NCBI GenBank assembly: GCA_009699205.1
Contig: WLOP01000003.1
Span: forward strand, 1 to 64,000
Direction: 5' to 3'
DNA length: 64,000 bases
DNA from: Actinomycetota bacterium
Lineage (GTDB): Bacteria; Actinomycetota; Actinomycetes; Nanopelagicales; Nanopelagicaceae
Made by a program: the position numbers and the translations under genes. Under the pieces are notes generated by a model. That model was not told the DNA's origin. It made no database searches and was given only the letters and a program-made list of their open reading frames with translations. Positions 2,769 to 26,487 of the stretch are shown in pieces (the first letter of the stretch is position 1; every line of letters starts with the position of its first letter).

Positions 2769-3836
2769 TTAGGACAAGGATTGAGAGGCGGGGTTACCGC
2801 CACTGTAAAAAAACATCTCCTCTTTTCCACGAGGAGCATCCCATCCTTGGGCAAAGAACCACTCGCCCCGGTATTCCAACATTCCACCCCACGCCAAAGT
2901 CGCGTTATGGGTGAAATCTAAGGGCGTATATGGATTGCTGAGATCGAAGAGAGCTTGAGCACCTGCATGGTGGCCATTGTTATCGTTATAGAGGAAATCC
3001 ATCACTAGCTGATCCCCGTTGACGATGGCGCAAGCGATTTCGTAGATATGTTTACCAAATCCATCAGGCAGAGGTAAATACTCTTTCTTCTCAAAACTCC
3101 AATCAATCATATTTGTGGAGTGCCCCACGTATTGAAATCCGCCGCATCCCTCACTTAGGAACATCAAATATTCACCATCAATTTTGACCGCTTCGCCTTG
3201 GCCGTTGCGAGGGATTACTGCACCTTTAGCCCATAGTTTCGAAATCTCGTAGGGGACGGCCAAGCCTTTCTTCTCCCAGTGGAGAAGATCACTACTCAGT
3301 GCGTAGTTGATATCGCATGCCACATCTCCGAAAGGTTTTGCATACTCTGCAACTGATTCGGCAGATGCTCTCCAGGCCCCGTTATAAAACATGATGTATT
3401 GATCTTCTCCGTATTTATAGACTTTGGGATCCTCGACGCTAAGGATTTCATTCTCTTGCGTCGGAAAGAGAATGGGGTTTTCTGCATAATCTTCCCATCC
3501 TTGGCCATCTGTATAGATAGCAAGGCCAACTCGAGACCCTAAAGATTCCTTTTTAACAGAGGCGCGATAATAAAGATAAATTTTTTCATCTTTGATAATT
3601 GTTGAAGGATTAAAAATAGATGATGAAGTCCAACCGATTCCAGTGGGATCTGCCATCTGAGTGGATTTCACAAAAGTATAAGTATCATTCTTTGCGAAAG
3701 GTCCTATCGCCCAACTCTTATCAGTTTCATACTTGGAGATGAATTGAGTTTGAGTTATCTCAGTGATCTCTTCATTGATAGGTTGATTAAGTGCTTCAAG
3801 GTAATTCTCTTGCAACGTCTTTTTGTAGTTATCCAT
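2769..3836 (-). CDS. Five-bladed beta-propeller glycosidase (GH43/GH130-like)
   Basis: 355 residues, no signal peptide, so probably cytoplasmic. The sequence has the repeating blade pattern of the GH43/GH32/GH130 superfamily: FNPSTIIKDEKIYLYYR at about 75-91, VEDPKVYKYGEDQYIMFYNG at about 130-149, and IDGEYLMFLSEGCGG about 75 residues later. The acidic residue in the VEDPKV block matches the position of a catalytic or stabilising Asp in these families, but I cannot assign a family firmly. GAGGGAGAG lies just before the ATG. It is divergent from the MFS gene (118-base gap), which may carry its substrate or product. Confidence 0.65.
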   Translation of the reverse strand: MDNYKKTLQENYLEALNQPINEEITEITQTQFISKYETDKSWAIGPFAKNDTYTFVKSTQMADPTGIGWTSSSIFNPSTIIKDEKIYLYYRASVKKESLGSRVGLAIYTDGQGWEDYAENPILFPTQENEILSVEDPKVYKYGEDQYIMFYNGAWRASAESVAEYAKPFGDVACDINYALSSDLLHWEKKGLAVPYEISKLWAKGAVIPRNGQGEAVKIDGEYLMFLSEGCGGFQYVGHSTNMIDWSFEKKEYLPLPDGFGKHIYEIACAIVNGDQLVMDFLYNDNNGHHAGAQALFDLSNPYTPLDFTHNATLAWGGMLEYRGEWFFAQGWDAPRGKEEMFFYSGGNPASQSLS

Positions 3837-3954
3837 GTCTCTCCCTCAACTCATTCAATTCACCAGCCATTATTGGTCCTAAACATTTCTTTGTCGCGTT
3901 TACGTACTTTTGCTTATTTGTGTCAACTATCTTTTTCTTGCAAAAGAGAGAATG

Positions 3955-19794: not shown

Positions 19795-19918
19795 CCCGCT
19801 TGGCGATATGTCCGTTTTGTCCGACCTCCGCGACAAAGTACCATCGGATTCGTAGTAGCAGGTAGAGGCGGCGACGGTCGGCTCTGCACTACATAACCGG
19901 TAAAAAAGGATCCCAGAA

Positions 19919-21334
19919 GTGTCAAAGAAATCTGCAGCTCACGCAGGTCCGATTGATTGGACTGTTGCGCAGCTGGGTGCTTTCTACACAGAGCACCGCT
20001 CAGAACTTCTGACACATGCAAATCGCGTTCTAAAAGATTCAGCCAAGGCCGAGGAAATCACTCAAGATGCCTTGATTAAGTTCATGCTCGCAGCTCCAGA
20101 GCTTGAGTCCACTGAACATGCACTCTCTTATCTACACCGCACTATCGAAAACCTCTGCATCGACTTCTTCCGCCTCGAAGGACGTCGCCCCAACCTGGTT
20201 CTTCTCGATGATGCAACTGCCGAAGTAGAAGCAACATGGCAAAACAGCGGAGATCACTCCGCAGCACTTAGCGCAGCAGAAGATGCAGCAATCATTCGCC
20301 AAGCACTTGCAATGTTGTCACCTGCAGAGCGCGCAGCACTTGTGATGTGGGAGATGGAAGGTCGCTCCACAGAAGAGATTGCCGCCGAACTTGGTATCAA
20401 AGAATCTGCAGTGCGCCACACAGTTTCACGTGCTCGCGCTTCTTTGCGTCGCGTACTTTCTGAAATTATTGTTGACGAAGAGCGCGGACTTACAGCCCTT
20501 GATCTTCTCTCGACCTCTTACAAGAAGGCCGCAGTCATCGCCAAGAAATCTTCTAAGGTTGCACTCTCACTTATCCTCCTTTTCACCGCATTCCTTGGCT
20601 TTAACTCAATGACCGGCAACGAAGGATCAAATATTCCTTTGGCTCAATCAGAGATTTCGAATCAGACTCCAATTCTTGACGATGCAACAACTCCTTCGCT
20701 TTCACCAACAACTGACAATGCAACATCACCTGCCGCTAGTGCAGCAGCGACGAAGCAAGCAACTGCAGCAGCCACTGCGGCCGCTCGCAAAGCAAGCGCA
20801 CTAAAGAGTGGGCTAACAATCAAGACCCCACGCCTTTCATTTGCTGGCCTTGATAAAGATGGAGTACCCACAGGATTTACTGTTACTGACTCCACCAACG
20901 TTGCAGGCAAACTCTTCGTTGGAAAAGATGCACCAGTCCTTACTTCTAACGGCATGATTTTGAGCAACCACGCGATGACATCCGGAGATGCGCCAAACGT
21001 GCTTCTTGGACAATCCATCACCGTAGATCCATCAGGTACCACCTATAACTCAACTGTCACAGTGGGCATCAATGGCAGTTGGACTCGCCTCAATGTCGCT
21101 AACACCACGACTACAATTGACCGTTTGGCCACGGGCCAGTACCTCATGACTGTGACCTTCGCCATTGATTCGGCTCAAGAGTCGATGCTCAGCGTTTCCA
21201 CAAACGGCAGAGGGTATGATTTCGCCTCTGCGCCAAAGACAATCACCACCCGTCTTCTGCTCACAGCTGGCAAGACTCAGATTCTTGCCCAAGCCGTATC
21301 GATCTCCGGTACAGCAGATGGAGCCTCTTCATGA
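19919..21334 (+). CDS. ECF-type sigma factor with C-terminal transmembrane anchor and exported domain
   Basis: 471 residues from GTG, with AAGGAT 8 bases upstream. Residues 20-88 match sigma region 2 (DSAKAEEITQDALIKFM, YLHRTIENLCIDFFRLEGRR), and 126-180 match region 4 (LSPAERAALVMWEMEGRSTE, IAAELGIKESAVRHTVSRAR). Residues 213-230 form one hydrophobic helix (VALSLILLFTAFLGF). The remaining 240 residues begin with a Ser/Thr/Ala-rich linker and end in a beta-rich domain that would lie outside the cell. An ordinary ECF sigma has about 180 residues and a separate anti-sigma; here a sensor-like tail is fused on. The surface-protein gene 131 bases downstream is a natural target. Membrane control of the sigma is inferred. 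Confidence 0.82.
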   Translation: MSKKSAAHAGPIDWTVAQLGAFYTEHRSELLTHANRVLKDSAKAEEITQDALIKFMLAAPELESTEHALSYLHRTIENLCIDFFRLEGRRPNLVLLDDATAEVEATWQNSGDHSAALSAAEDAAIIRQALAMLSPAERAALVMWEMEGRSTEEIAAELGIKESAVRHTVSRARASLRRVLSEIIVDEERGLTALDLLSTSYKKAAVIAKKSSKVALSLILLFTAFLGFNSMTGNEGSNIPLAQSEISNQTPILDDATTPSLSPTTDNATSPAASAAATKQATAAATAAARKASALKSGLTIKTPRLSFAGLDKDGVPTGFTVTDSTNVAGKLFVGKDAPVLTSNGMILSNHAMTSGDAPNVLLGQSITVDPSGTTYNSTVTVGINGSWTRLNVANTTTTIDRLATGQYLMTVTFAIDSAQESMLSVSTNGRGYDFASAPKTITTRLLLTAGKTQILAQAVSISGTADGASS

Positions 21335-21391
21335 AGCGCTCCGTAATAACCCAGATTTCCTCCGTACTCCGGATAGTGCGGGGGGAAAGAG

Positions 21392-21454
21392 ATGCGTTAG
21401 TACGTACAACGCATTTCAAAGCCGCAGTCGAGAACGTCTCGATTGCGACAATCG
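21392..21454 (+). promoter_or_regulatory. Structured 5' leader of the surface-protein gene
   Basis: Three inverted repeats precede the start at 21466. ATGCGTT (21392-21398) pairs with AACGCAT (21408-21414). TCGAGA (21428-21433) pairs with TCTCGA (21437-21442). CGATTG (21440-21445) pairs with CAATCG (21449-21454). The last two share bases 21440-21442 and so compete. The final hairpin ends where the ribosome binding site GAAAGGA begins. Such leaders often stabilise abundant mRNAs or gate translation. Confidence 0.55.
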
Positions 21455-21465
21455 AAAGGAAAACA

Positions 21466-23286
21466 ATGTCTACAAAGACAACTCTCAAGCGCATCGCGCT
21501 TGTTGCTGTTGCTGCAACAGGTTTCGGCCTGATGTCTGTAGTGCCTTCATCGGCAACACACTTCGGTGACACTCTCACCGTTTCAGATGCAACAGATACC
21601 ATGGCAATTGGTGGCACTGCTGCTACTACAACAGTTACTCAATCTTTCTTGGCACCTGGCGGTACCGCTGACTCCATGACTGTGACAGCTTCTGTTGTGA
21701 GCTCACCAGCCACAATGTCTGCAGTTCCAGTTCTTACTGTTGGTGCAGGAAGCGTCAATACAACTCCAGTAGTTGTTGGCCAGGTTGTTTCAGTTAACGC
21801 TGACTCTGCTGCAGTTACAACAGGTGTAATTACCGCAACATTGAACGCAACTGTTGCTGGTGTTTACATAATCAAGTTCACACCTGCAACTCTAGATACA
21901 GCTCCAGCTGGCGCTGTATCGGCTACTGCAGTTACATGGACAGTTACTGTTGGTGCGGCTAAATTAGTTAGCGCATCACACACACTCTCATTAATCGGAC
22001 CACTTGTTACTCCTGCTGCTTCAGTTGCAGCTGAAACTGCAGCTGGCACGCTTAACCACTACAAGGCAGCCCTTACAACTAGTGCAGGTTCACAACTTGC
22101 AACAATCAAGGTAACTCCTTTGGATGATGCAGATGCTGCACTAAATACAAACGTAGCTATCTCAGCCAAGATCGTTAGCGGCCCAGGATCTCTAGGCATT
22201 GCTGCTTCTGCAGGTGCTGCAGTTCCAGCCGGACGTGACGTAACTGATGCAACAACACGCACAGCTCACTACGTTGGTATTTGGGGCGATGGAACTTCAG
22301 GTACAACTGTTGTTAACATCTACACAGGTACAACTCTTCTATCAACAGAGTCATTCGTCTTCTACGGCGATATTGCATCTATTACAGCCACAAAGGTATC
22401 TGGACTAGTCCATGCTGGCGTGACTAACACAGCTGCAATCACAGTAGTTGCTAAGGACTCAAATCAAGTAACTATTCCTGTTGGAAACGTTTACTTCACC
22501 TCTTCAGATCTCACAGTGATTAACAACAGTTACTCAACAGTGGATCTTGCAGTAGGTACAGTTTCACTAGTAACACTTGTTGCCGGAACTGCAAACATCA
22601 CATTCAGTGATGCCAACACAGCAGCTGGTACAACAGTGACTTCAAACGTAGTTGCAATGCGTGTAGCTGCGGCTGCTGCAACTGCAACAATTGCATTCGA
22701 CAAGAGCTCATATGCTCTAGGCGAGAAGGCAACTGTTACAGTTTCAATCCGTGATGCTGCTGGACTTCCAGTAGATAAGACTGCAGTTGCTACTGCTTTC
22801 GCAGCCGGTGGTATGGTTTCAAACTTCGCCCTTACAGGCGCTGATTTGACCCTCGCTAGCGTTACACCTTTGCTTGACTCAGGTGATGCTACATACACCG
22901 TTTACCTTCCAGCATATGCTGCAGATATCACTCTTACCGCAACTGGTGGGGCTGGACTTGCAACTGATTCTGGTCTAACAATCACATCGCCAACTGTTTC
23001 TGTAAGTGACACTGCTGCTGATGCAGCATCTGCCGCCGCTGCAGAAGCAACTGACAATGCAATTGCTGCTTACGAAGCAGCCGTTGAAGCAACATCTGCT
23101 GCAGAAGATGCAGGAGCTGCTGCTCTAGCCGCACAAGAGTCAGCTGATGCTGCTCTTGAGGCAGTTACTACTCTGGGAACAGATGTAGCTGCAGCAATTC
23201 AGAAGATCTCTGATCAAATCACAGCTATCAACGTTGTATTGGTCAAGCTCGGAACGACACTTGCTAAGCTAGCTGCAAAGAAGTAA
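21466..23286 (+). CDS. Exported repetitive surface protein, possible S-layer component
   Basis: 606 residues from the ATG at 21466, which has GAAAGGA upstream and starts a signal peptide (MSTKTTLKRIALVAVAATGF, cleavage after SSA near residue 30). The frame is open back to 21331, but that overlaps the sigma gene. The mature protein is Ala/Thr/Val-rich with repeated beta-sandwich (Ig-like) segments, almost no Cys, and a C-terminal Ala-rich coiled coil (about residues 510-606) with heptad-like spacing. Strongly biased codon use and a strong terminator point to very high expression. These are the general traits of S-layer or sheath proteins, but no S-layer anchoring domain (SLH) is present. Confidence 0.65.
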   Translation: MSTKTTLKRIALVAVAATGFGLMSVVPSSATHFGDTLTVSDATDTMAIGGTAATTTVTQSFLAPGGTADSMTVTASVVSSPATMSAVPVLTVGAGSVNTTPVVVGQVVSVNADSAAVTTGVITATLNATVAGVYIIKFTPATLDTAPAGAVSATAVTWTVTVGAAKLVSASHTLSLIGPLVTPAASVAAETAAGTLNHYKAALTTSAGSQLATIKVTPLDDADAALNTNVAISAKIVSGPGSLGIAASAGAAVPAGRDVTDATTRTAHYVGIWGDGTSGTTVVNIYTGTTLLSTESFVFYGDIASITATKVSGLVHAGVTNTAAITVVAKDSNQVTIPVGNVYFTSSDLTVINNSYSTVDLAVGTVSLVTLVAGTANITFSDANTAAGTTVTSNVVAMRVAAAAATATIAFDKSSYALGEKATVTVSIRDAAGLPVDKTAVATAFAAGGMVSNFALTGADLTLASVTPLLDSGDATYTVYLPAYAADITLTATGGAGLATDSGLTITSPTVSVSDTAADAASAAAAEATDNAIAAYEAAVEATSAAEDAGAAALAAQESADAALEAVTTLGTDVAAAIQKISDQITAINVVLVKLGTTLAKLAAKK

Positions 23287-23439: not shown

Positions 23440-25245
23440 GTGAAGAAGTTAGCTCAGTTAGGTGAAGTCGAGGCAAAGCAGAGTAGGCGCTTGGTTTTGG
23501 CTGCTGGGACGCTCACTACTCTGCTGGTCTGGAGCACCTTGGATGACCCCATCAATATCCCGAAAATGTTTCTTCTCAGCATCTTTGCTGCATGGCTCTT
23601 GGCAACTGTCGGTAGTTCGTTTCTTGCGACACGTAACTTTGGGTTCAATTTAGGTCAGATTTGCGTGGGGCTTTTTGCTCTAGGAATTTTGGTTGCAGCC
23701 ATGGTGAGCGATCTTCGATATACCGCCTTTTATGGAGCGCCACAGCGGCACTTAGGGGCATTTTCCTATTGGTCTTTAGCGGTAGTGGCATTTGCTTCGA
23801 TGGCATCTTTCACGTTGAACACTCTCACTCAGATTCGTTCACTTCTTTTTTATCTAGGTATCGCCATGGGGCTTTATGCCCTTGTGCAGAGCACGGGACA
23901 CGATCTATTCAGCTGGGTGCTTCTATATGGGCCAGTGGTCGGCACTCTAGGAAATCCTGACTTTGCTTCGGGACTTCTTGGAGTGACAACAATTGCAGCG
24001 CTTTGGGTTGTGGTGAATCCGCAAGGTTCGGGTGCTCGAAGAATACAGATGCGTGTTCTGGCGGGTTTCGGATTAGTAGTTGAACTCCTTGCAATAAAGA
24101 AAACCGGATCAATTCAAGGATTTGCAGCATTCGCACTCGGTCTGACTTCGTTGGTAATTATTCTTGCTTGGCAAAAACGTAAGTACTTTGGATACATCGC
24201 TCTCGGGGTTGCTGCAGTTGGGGTATTGGGTGTGGTTGCTGGTTTGCTTAACAAAGGTCCATTCGCTGCGCGTATTTATCAATCCACATTACTTAACCGT
24301 TTAGATTATTGGAAAGCGGCGTGGAGCGCATTTAAAGCCCATCCACTTTTCGGTATTGGTTTAGATCGTTTCGGCGAATACTACGGTCAATATGCTCCGC
24401 AAATACAGGTGGTTGAGAACCAAGGAACAGATAATGCTCACAACGTGTTTTTGCAGTTGTTAGCAACGGGAGGGCTAGTTGTTGTACTGCCTTATCTATT
24501 GCTTCTTGGAGTTATCTTCTGGGCAGGCTTACGTGCAGTTATACGGAGTAAAGGTAACAATCAGATTCACCTTGGTGCACTTTTTGCAATCTGGTTAGCT
24601 CTTTTAGCAATCTCAACAATCTCTATCGATAATTTGGGTATCGCAATCTGGCTCTGGATTGCAGGGGGCGCTCTTTATGCGGCTAGCGCTAAGAATGTTG
24701 GCGCTGGCAAAAATTCTCAAAGTGCCACCCTCATTGCACCGATTGCGGGACTTGTTTTCTCGGTTATCGCCCTGGTGGTGATATTTCCTGTCTGGAAAAC
24801 TTCGGCGCTAGTCTTTGATCTTCAGCGAAATAGAGGTGCGCTCTCTGAACCTGATCTGAAAGCTAAAGTGGATCAATTAGCAACAATTAATTCGAGCAAC
24901 GTTCAAGCTTTGATAAACGCGACTGACTTTGCCTTGCAACTAGATGATAAGCCGCTTGCACTTTCCTATGCCAAGAAAGCATTGGCGCTTGACCCACGCT
25001 CGTACTACGGAAACTATCTCAGCGCTTTGGCCAATGAGATGCAAGGGAAATTTGCAGAGGCGATTGCCTTTAGAGTCCAGATAACGCAGACCGATATTTG
25101 GAATACCAACAATATGCTGGAATTAACCAAAGATTATGTGAAAGTAAAAGATCTATCCAGCGCTAAGGCTATGGCAAGCAAGATTGCAACGCTTAAACCC
25201 GAGAGCGATAACGCCAAAGCGGCTTTAGCGCTTCTCAATGGATAG
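23440..25245 (+). CDS. O-antigen ligase/polymerase-like membrane protein with C-terminal TPR domain
   Basis: 601 residues from GTG, with GAGGGGA upstream; a TAGTAT -10-like box is at 23401-23406. About 10-12 membrane segments cover residues 15-460. The Wzy_C-type loop contains PLFGIGLDRFGEYYGQYAP and the conserved DNAHNVFLQLLATGG. A soluble region from about 470 carries TPR-like helices (ALSYAKKALALDPRSYYGNY, MQGKFAEAIAFR). WaaL/Wzy-family proteins join lipid-linked glycans or transfer them to acceptors, including proteins. Position between the surface-protein gene and nucleotide-sugar genes suggests a role in glycan assembly or glycosylation of the surface protein. Confidence 0.78.
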   Translation: MKKLAQLGEVEAKQSRRLVLAAGTLTTLLVWSTLDDPINIPKMFLLSIFAAWLLATVGSSFLATRNFGFNLGQICVGLFALGILVAAMVSDLRYTAFYGAPQRHLGAFSYWSLAVVAFASMASFTLNTLTQIRSLLFYLGIAMGLYALVQSTGHDLFSWVLLYGPVVGTLGNPDFASGLLGVTTIAALWVVVNPQGSGARRIQMRVLAGFGLVVELLAIKKTGSIQGFAAFALGLTSLVIILAWQKRKYFGYIALGVAAVGVLGVVAGLLNKGPFAARIYQSTLLNRLDYWKAAWSAFKAHPLFGIGLDRFGEYYGQYAPQIQVVENQGTDNAHNVFLQLLATGGLVVVLPYLLLLGVIFWAGLRAVIRSKGNNQIHLGALFAIWLALLAISTISIDNLGIAIWLWIAGGALYAASAKNVGAGKNSQSATLIAPIAGLVFSVIALVVIFPVWKTSALVFDLQRNRGALSEPDLKAKVDQLATINSSNVQALINATDFALQLDDKPLALSYAKKALALDPRSYYGNYLSALANEMQGKFAEAIAFRVQITQTDIWNTNNMLELTKDYVKVKDLSSAKAMASKIATLKPESDNAKAALALLNG

Positions 25246-25254
25246 GGTTGCCAC

Positions 25255-26487
25255 GTGCCTTCACGCGAAAAAACAATTGCAATAATCGGGCAGGGCTACG
25301 TTGGATTGCCCCTAGCCATGGCTGCAGTTGAAGCCGGTTGGACAGTATTTGGTGTTGAGAATTCGCCAACTAAATACGCGTTAATCGCTAGCGGTAAAAG
25401 TCCAGTCGAAGATGTGAAAGATCAATTGATTGCCGGCGCTTTGAAATCCGGGAAGTATAAGATTTCAGATACCTCCATCTCTGTTGCTGAGGCATCTATT
25501 GTTGTCATTTGCGTACCAACCCCACTGGATGACAATCGCGCGCCAGATATATCTCTCTTAGAATCTGCAGTGATATCTATTGCGCCGCACGTGCAATCAG
25601 GCACGCTAGTGATCAGTGAATCGACTTCTTATCCCGGCACTGTGCGTGATGTTGTAAAGCCGTTGATAGAGAAACATAAGAAAAGCGCTGACATTTCCGT
25701 AGATATTGCGGTCGCACCCGAGCGAGTTAATCCAGGGGATGCGATATATCACCAGAAGAACACACCGCGACTCGTGGGCGGATTAGATGCTGCTTCAACT
25801 AAGCGTGCAGTGGATTTCTATAGCTCGATTTGTGATCAAGTGGTACAGGTATCAAGCCCAGAGGTTGCAGAAACAGCGAAGTTACTCGAAAACACTTTCC
25901 GCTTAGTCAATATTGCTTTAGTTAATCAGCTTGCTCAATTATGCGCAGATCAAGATATCAACGTTCATGAGGTCATCGAGGCAGCTGCAACAAAGCCATA
26001 TGGATATATGAAATTCACACCGAGTGTAGGTGTTGGTGGCCATTGCATTCCGGTGGATCCAATGTATCTCTCTTGGTGGGCCGAGAACAATGGCAAGAGC
26101 GCATCTATCATCGACACTTCGGATGCAATCAATGTTGGGATGCCGCTATATATCTCTTCCCGAGTTCGCCAACTTATTACCGGGGCGAGCAAGCGAGTAT
26201 TAATTATGGGTGTTGCATACAAACCTGGTGTTAAAGATGTCCGCGAGACTCCTGCAACAGCCTTACGTGATGACCTCATAGCGCACGGGTGCGAGGTCGC
26301 CTGGATTGATCCGCTGGTAGATGAATGGGATGGCTCAAAACCCGTTGATACTCAATGGCTTTGCGATGTTGTTGTAGTTGCCACGGCCCAGCCGGGACTG
26401 CCTGTTGCTGAATTTTCAAAGCGCGGAGTTCCGATTTTAGATTGCACGGGTACTTTTAAAGATCTGCCTCACGTCACTCGAATCTAA
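25255..26487 (+). CDS. Nucleotide-sugar dehydrogenase (UDP-GlcNAc/ManNAc/glucose 6-dehydrogenase type)
   Basis: 410 residues from GTG. The N-terminal NAD fold starts with IAIIGQGYVGLPLAMAAVEA. The central part has VVICVPTPLDDNRAPDIS and the C-terminal domain VLIMGVAYKPGVKDVRETPA. The catalytic Cys is in GVGGHCIPVDPMYL, where four-electron oxidation of the sugar C6 takes place to give a uronic acid. The pattern GGHCIPVDPxYL fits the WecC/TviB/WbpA group rather than strict UDP-glucose dehydrogenases. It lies 9 bases after the ligase-like gene and probably shares its mRNA, supplying an acidic sugar for surface glycans. Confidence 0.88.
   Translation: MPSREKTIAIIGQGYVGLPLAMAAVEAGWTVFGVENSPTKYALIASGKSPVEDVKDQLIAGALKSGKYKISDTSISVAEASIVVICVPTPLDDNRAPDISLLESAVISIAPHVQSGTLVISESTSYPGTVRDVVKPLIEKHKKSADISVDIAVAPERVNPGDAIYHQKNTPRLVGGLDAASTKRAVDFYSSICDQVVQVSSPEVAETAKLLENTFRLVNIALVNQLAQLCADQDINVHEVIEAAATKPYGYMKFTPSVGVGGHCIPVDPMYLSWWAENNGKSASIIDTSDAINVGMPLYISSRVRQLITGASKRVLIMGVAYKPGVKDVRETPATALRDDLIAHGCEVAWIDPLVDEWDGSKPVDTQWLCDVVVVATAQPGLPVAEFSKRGVPILDCTGTFKDLPHVTRI

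Follow-up and report, generated by a model that had tools for sequence, protein, structure and literature searches.

An ECF sigma factor that continues, within one chain, through a single membrane helix into an outside domain is encoded directly upstream of a surface-layer-like gene in the 64,000-nucleotide stretch of actinobacterial DNA analysed here (the window). We put at about an even chance the reading in which this protein is a self-activating ECF sigma factor, tethered to the membrane and serving its own operon only, that would read the state of the surface from outside the cell and be freed by cleavage. The features concerned are collected in Table 1.

Table 1 Features of the fused sigma locus (window coordinates)
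Feature	Position	Strand	Basis or remark
Conserved element TGTCCGTTTTGTCC, TGTCC direct repeat, just upstream of the type-A promoter	19809..19822	+	Nearly all type-A loci
ECF-type promoter of the sigma gene, GACAAA ... CGTAGTAG (ACA-N15-CGTAG)	19831..19858	+	Upstream of 31/31 type-A sigmas
Fused ECF sigma factor, whole ORF, 471 aa	19919..21334	+	No internal stop, GTG start
Sigma domain, region 2 (aa 22-89) to region 4 (aa 125-176)	19982..20446	+	Pfam; PDB fold matches
Juxtamembrane helix and single transmembrane helix (about aa 186-229), strongly conserved	20474..20605	+	Alignment, AlphaFold
Disordered extracytoplasmic linker, Ala/Ser/Thr-rich (about aa 230-301)	20606..20821	+	pLDDT below 50; composition
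Extracytoplasmic beta domain (aa 302-465), 165 residues	20822..21313	+	Structure prediction
Structured RNA leader of the surface gene	21357..21447	+	Hairpin 1 21357-21386, hairpin 2 21389-21417, hairpin 4 21423-21447
Ribosome-binding site GAAAGGA of the surface gene	21454..21460	+	Near-invariant in alignment
Surface-layer-like protein, 606 aa, best start ATG 21466	21466..23286	+	Follows the sigma gene

Architecture and topology of the fused sigma factor

The preliminary description of this region had proposed a complete ECF sigma factor, a transmembrane (TM) helix and an exported part in one frame, and this is borne out by the intact open reading frame and its Pfam matches to sigma regions 2 and 4. 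The start codon is preceded, 8 nt upstream, by AAGGA. Sigma70_r2 (E 2e-12) and Sigma70_r4_2 (E 1e-14) were matched in the full-length protein; these Pfam matches and TIGR02937 (NCBIfam) lie above cut-off, and the predicted sigma domain resembles ECF sigmas in fold (PDB, E 4e-7). Region 3 is absent, a weak sigma-3 Pfam match falling below cut-off and overlapping region 4. The predicted domain content, with regions 2 and 4 present and region 3 absent, thus places the protein among the ECF sigma factors.

Only one hydrophobic segment was found, from about residue 214, and AlphaFold predicts a long helix at residues 193-229. Lysine and arginine average 4.4 in the 15 residues before the TM helix versus 0.6 after it across 64 family proteins, and are more numerous before than after in every one of the 64, so an N-in/C-out topology is predicted throughout. 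This agrees with the earlier account of one hydrophobic helix followed by about 240 exported residues, the length estimated here for the extracytoplasmic part. The juxtamembrane/TM segment contains many invariant residues in the alignment of relatives, and its conservation would seem to exceed the needs of a mere anchor.

The beta domain, predicted alone, reaches a pLDDT of 91.9 and a pTM of 0.87. No Pfam family was matched in the C-terminal 290 residues, no convincing family match was obtained for the outside domain, and its best PDB fold match was no better than E 0.18. A copy of a surface-protein domain can be ruled out, given an hhalign probability of 0.1%. As had been described, a sensor-like domain and a sigma factor share one chain and no anti-sigma gene lies adjacent. 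A fused zinc anti-sigma domain is likewise ruled out: the HxxxCxxC zinc-finger motif occurs in 0 of 64 family proteins, which mostly contain 0-1 Cys, and a search of the fused sigma for a Pfam zinc finger gave no match.

Relatives and exchangeable modules

A tblastn scan of GTDB genomes yielded 78 loci. The protein is full-length in 61 of these (438-505 aa, ~45-75% identity), always in a single frame, and several come from complete genomes; the fusion is therefore not due to chance. A split or frameshift in relatives, named beforehand as the observation that would refute the fusion, was looked for and is absent from all 61, which rules out two separate proteins. The one short frame of a second survey (150 aa, genome G317) corresponds to a contig end.

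Within the order, a profile of the outside domain matches 73 of 201 genomes, which all belong to one family; in a sample of 295 other genomes from across the phylum it gave 0 matches. By these profile searches, the fused sigma is confined to one family, the Planktophila-like actinobacteria. Most genomes in the collections are metagenome-assembled, and contig ends frequently fall at the surface locus, which makes absence from fragmented genomes weak evidence. Among the single-contig genomes listed for the family, the tethered sigma is present in 17 of 17 and the complete protein, with beta domain, in 15 of 17. The complete genomes G314 and G316 keep the sigma, the TM helix and the leader (sigma-to-TM part 77-87% identical) and have a short alternative tail instead of the beta domain. 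The beta domain is thus not indispensable; the outside module is exchangeable, with the sigma-TM unit as the fixed core. The replacement tail looks helical in both loci, which belong to two genera (L179 1266-2279 and L180 complement 2951-3907; G316 and G314).

Two sigma subtypes can be distinguished by promoter type, A (n=31, window included) and B (n=28). Mean A-to-B identities are 0.49 (region 2), 0.63 (region 4), 0.73 (juxtamembrane/TM segment) and 0.41 (outside domain). In certain A/B protein pairs, identity rises to as much as 0.91 across the juxtamembrane/TM segment and 0.84 across the outside domain. This points to past recombination, as sigma and promoter moved jointly against a common anchor and outside part. 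A tandem duplicate of the whole sigma-leader-surface unit, with two sigmas and two surface genes, was observed in locus L193 (G392:C24, 1241-7828).

The relationship between the outside domain and the surface protein was assessed by Mantel tests. The partial Mantel value between the outside domain and the whole surface protein is 0.49 when corrected for sigma, versus 0.17 between sigma and surface protein when corrected for the outside domain. When the surface protein is represented by its variable N-terminal half, the outside domain shows no excess over sigma (0.18 vs 0.18). Such tests cannot tell functional pairing apart from physical linkage, and the correlation could partly reflect linkage or shared descent. 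We infer that the outside domain may report on the surface layer.

Promoter and predicted regulon

The sigma gene is preceded by an ECF-type promoter. Its counterpart at type-B loci is (C/G)AACAT(Y)TG-N10-GTGTC, and promoter type agrees with sigma subtype in all 59 loci having enough upstream sequence, a concordance to which physical linkage and shared descent may contribute. Of the 20 type-B genomes, 19 contain the type-B motif exactly once and one lacks it, with no control matches. In the window's genome, the type-A motif was found at the sigma's own promoter and at one other site, inside a dksA-like coding sequence; as this sole other match falls within a coding sequence, we rejected a wider regulon. 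With the promoter present essentially once per genome, the regulon is predicted to consist only of the operon that holds the sigma gene, and the sigma appears to switch on this operon alone, including the surface-layer-like gene. The motif analysis speaks for autoregulation, in which the sigma would probably recognise its own ECF-type promoter.

TGTCCGTTTTGTCC occurs once in the window's genome at up to 1 mismatch and is found beside type-A promoters only; it is possibly an activator or repressor site. The 5' region of the sigma mRNA (19862-19918, GTAGAGGCGGCGACGGTCGGCTCTGC) is also conserved and hairpin-like in look, and type-B loci have a different 5' region (GGCAAGACGTTGCC) in its place.

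The surface-layer-like gene and its RNA leader

The surface-layer-like protein has a signal peptide, is acidic, contains no Cys and ends in a conserved Ala-rich C-terminus. The position of the fused sigma directly upstream of a surface-protein gene had been pointed out in the preliminary description. This adjacency is conserved and operon-like, the surface gene following the sigma wherever the sequence extends far enough downstream, and the link is strengthened by the sigma gene's own promoter and by the structured leader. No sigma-70-like promoter was seen in 21000-21500, and no terminator was seen between the sigma stop codon and the surface gene.

Across loci the leader measures about 110-180 nt and comprises three constant hairpins and one optional hairpin. 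The distance from the sigma stop codon to hairpin 1 is only about 10-14 nt in many relatives. Changes on both sides that preserve pairing were found at 24 of 31 base pairs, and 97.8% of cells are paired; the observed pairing values were reached by 0 of 500 shuffles. A covariance model of the leader gave one match in the window's genome and matches in 80 of the 201 genomes of the order. A known Rfam family is ruled out, the three matches obtained being sub-threshold and chance-like. A short coding frame has also been rejected: many loci have an open frame leading into the surface gene, but others do not (for example L017-L019, L035). As this frame is not always open while the base pairs co-vary, the leader probably acts as RNA rather than as a coding sequence.

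The region 3' of the surface gene (23440-26487) encodes a Wzy_C/O-antigen-ligase-like membrane protein with TPR and a UDP-glucose/GDP-mannose dehydrogenase. Proteins similar to the former lie downstream of the surface gene in many relatives, and both the Wzy_C-like protein and the dehydrogenase may take part in glycosylating the surface protein.

Extra surface genes in relatives

Additional surface genes were found near the locus in L184, L185, L188, L189, L062 and L064. The extra genes keep the ribosome-binding site and hairpin 4, usually also the optional hairpin, and lack hairpins 1-2, the sigma and the promoter; the tandem extra copy in L060 fits the hairpin-2 loop pattern, not hairpin 1. 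As the extra genes lack sigma, promoter and hairpin 1, the sigma operon seems to be the sole site of expression. Several of them are inverted, with a tyrosine recombinase (PF00589) between them, as in L189 (2949-9408; G319:C28:7948-14407), where an oppositely oriented surface-gene pair flanks the recombinase next to the sigma; this layout was noted in L184, L185, L188, L062 and L064 too. A CTCAT-N5-ATGAG palindrome is present in the leaders of most inverted or extra copies. Among the 61 full-length loci, recombinase matches occur only together with the palindrome (4 of 16 palindrome loci versus 0 of 45 others). Nothing of this arrangement was seen in the window itself.

The gene order suggests that the inverted surface genes and recombinase may form an invertible switch of the surface layer, in which expression would take place from the sigma operon. 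Invertible surface-gene systems include Vpma of Mycoplasma agalactiae and S-layer switching in Campylobacter fetus. Some relatives share with these the tyrosine recombinase, the inverted surface genes and a single promoter-bearing copy. They differ in that the expression site encodes a dedicated sigma, and in that the switch is suggested here by gene arrangement in relatives.

Comparison with known systems

The comparison with ECF groups having C-terminal extensions, suggested at the outset, held in part. ECF48, ECF52 and ECF53 have one to two C-terminal TM helices and an outside extension, and the protein described here resembles them with one TM helix and about 240 residues. Their zinc anti-sigma domain (HxxxCxxC), located between sigma and TM, is absent. 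By the features tested, the fused sigma is an ECF sigma factor but not a member of ECF48, ECF52 or ECF53.

The closest layout is that of the ECF52 protein SCO4117 from Streptomyces coelicolor, where a sigma, a C-terminal TM region, a flexible linker and an outside domain form one chain (PMC5826349). Positive autoregulation has been suggested for SCO4117 and release by cleavage proposed, and a truncated ECF52 sigma supports release in this related design (PMC5826349). ECF52 differs in its zinc-finger anti-sigma and carbohydrate-binding module, neither of which was found here by Pfam or PDB fold searches, and SCO4117 has 29 putative target operons, whereas only the own operon is predicted here. 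IutY of Pseudomonas putida (ECF243) likewise supports sigma release by cleavage in a related design (PMC8999054). Its sigma is fused to a membrane-bound regulatory part, and release by intramembrane cleavage, as proposed here, would match; in contrast, IutY has an anti-sigma factor, functions in cell-surface signalling for iron and relies on Prc, an S41 protease not found here.

Envelope-linked control of an ECF sigma and an autoregulated promoter are also features of the canonical pairs of an ECF sigma and a membrane anti-sigma, SigW-RsiW and RpoE-RseA. In the present case the anti-sigma is neither separate nor fused, and the anchor and outside domain lie within the sigma itself. The membrane-bound one-component regulators ToxR and CadC are alike in layout only, with an inside DNA-acting domain, one TM helix and an outside domain, a layout that could allow action without release; they are winged-helix activators, whereas a sigma factor must bind RNA polymerase. 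A search of the literature on a surface layer or a tethered sigma in Planktophila/acI gave nothing useful.

Discussion

In the mechanism we propose, the sigma part would recognise the single ECF-type promoter at its own gene and transcribe on into the surface gene, and the RNA leader would let the latter be processed, stabilised or translated differently from the sigma gene. The beta domain, on its flexible linker, would report the surface-layer or cell-wall state to the sigma. Most likely, the chain would then be exposed to a first cleavage, after which site-2 cleavage in the conserved TM helix would free the sigma. Within this scheme we infer the sensing, its ligand, the protease route and the role of the leader; envelope sensing and proteolytic release had both been raised in the preliminary description. 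Release by cleavage is suggested by analogy with IutY and SCO4117 and by the presence of a site-2 protease. A homolog of the latter had been proposed as a check, and one PF02163 (M50) gene is indeed present in the window's genome, but the family is near-universal (14 of 14 control genomes), so its presence is weak support. A Prc-type (S41) protease, the partner of IutY, was not found in the window's 96%-complete genome, which weakens the cleavage route. The lack of a fused anti-sigma domain also leaves without explanation how a tethered sigma would be held inactive.

If the sigma acts at the membrane, release is perhaps unnecessary. It could work while membrane-bound, in the manner of ToxR/CadC, being inserted co-translationally near its own gene, with the outside domain tuning its activity without cleavage. 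The single target site per genome, which is the sigma's own, fits such action, as do the absent anti-sigma domain and the missing S41 protease; we nevertheless consider it rather unlikely, as both studied fused ECF sigmas point to cleavage and a site-2 protease gene is present. The conservation of the TM helix beyond an anchor's needs fits recognition by a protease, and equally any membrane partner. The long disordered linker could also indicate that the outside part is passive, a constitutive cut yielding free sigma and a secreted beta-domain protein that builds or anchors the surface layer. That the outside domain goes with the surface-protein type, and that two genomes have a short tail in its place, also speaks for this. 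However, no signal-peptidase-like site is evident after the TM helix and the fusion, needless for a mere co-product, is kept in all relatives, making a passive product improbable.

Surface proteins are usually very highly expressed, often from strong dedicated promoters, and on this general ground the surface gene might have a housekeeping promoter of its own, the sigma being a conserved neighbour with another job. Such a promoter was not seen in the interval searched, the gap between the sigma stop and hairpin 1 is very short in many relatives, and the two genes are adjacent wherever enough downstream sequence is available; we regard this arrangement as more improbable still. An artefact, in which a sequencing error or missed start joins two genes, is refuted by the single-frame full-length relatives, several from complete genomes, and retains a negligible probability. 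Returning to the tethered sigma, which would act on its own promoter alone, it may form part of a closed loop in which the surface state, via the outside domain and the leader, sets transcription of the surface gene, the tethered sigma providing the only expression site and the recombinase swapping surface genes in some relatives. This wider loop is offered tentatively, as a possibility on which we would lean towards doubt.

ECF sigmas with a fused membrane part were already known (ECF52, IutY). New here are two sigma subtypes with matching promoters, a structured leader and extra surface genes devoid of a sigma, and the leader is a candidate new regulatory RNA family. Planktophila-like actinobacteria are streamlined freshwater organisms and among the most abundant lake bacteria. 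These streamlined actinobacteria keep very few sigma factors; the window's genome has three by Pfam region 2, namely a housekeeping-type sigma, a SigH/SigR-like sigma with a zinc anti-sigma and the tethered sigma. As the latter is present in every single-contig genome listed for the family, it probably has a central role. If the loop is true, it would provide a simple system for how a cell senses its own surface coat, a way to ask whether a tethered sigma can work, and a way to ask how the cells cope with pressure from phages or grazers on their surface proteins.
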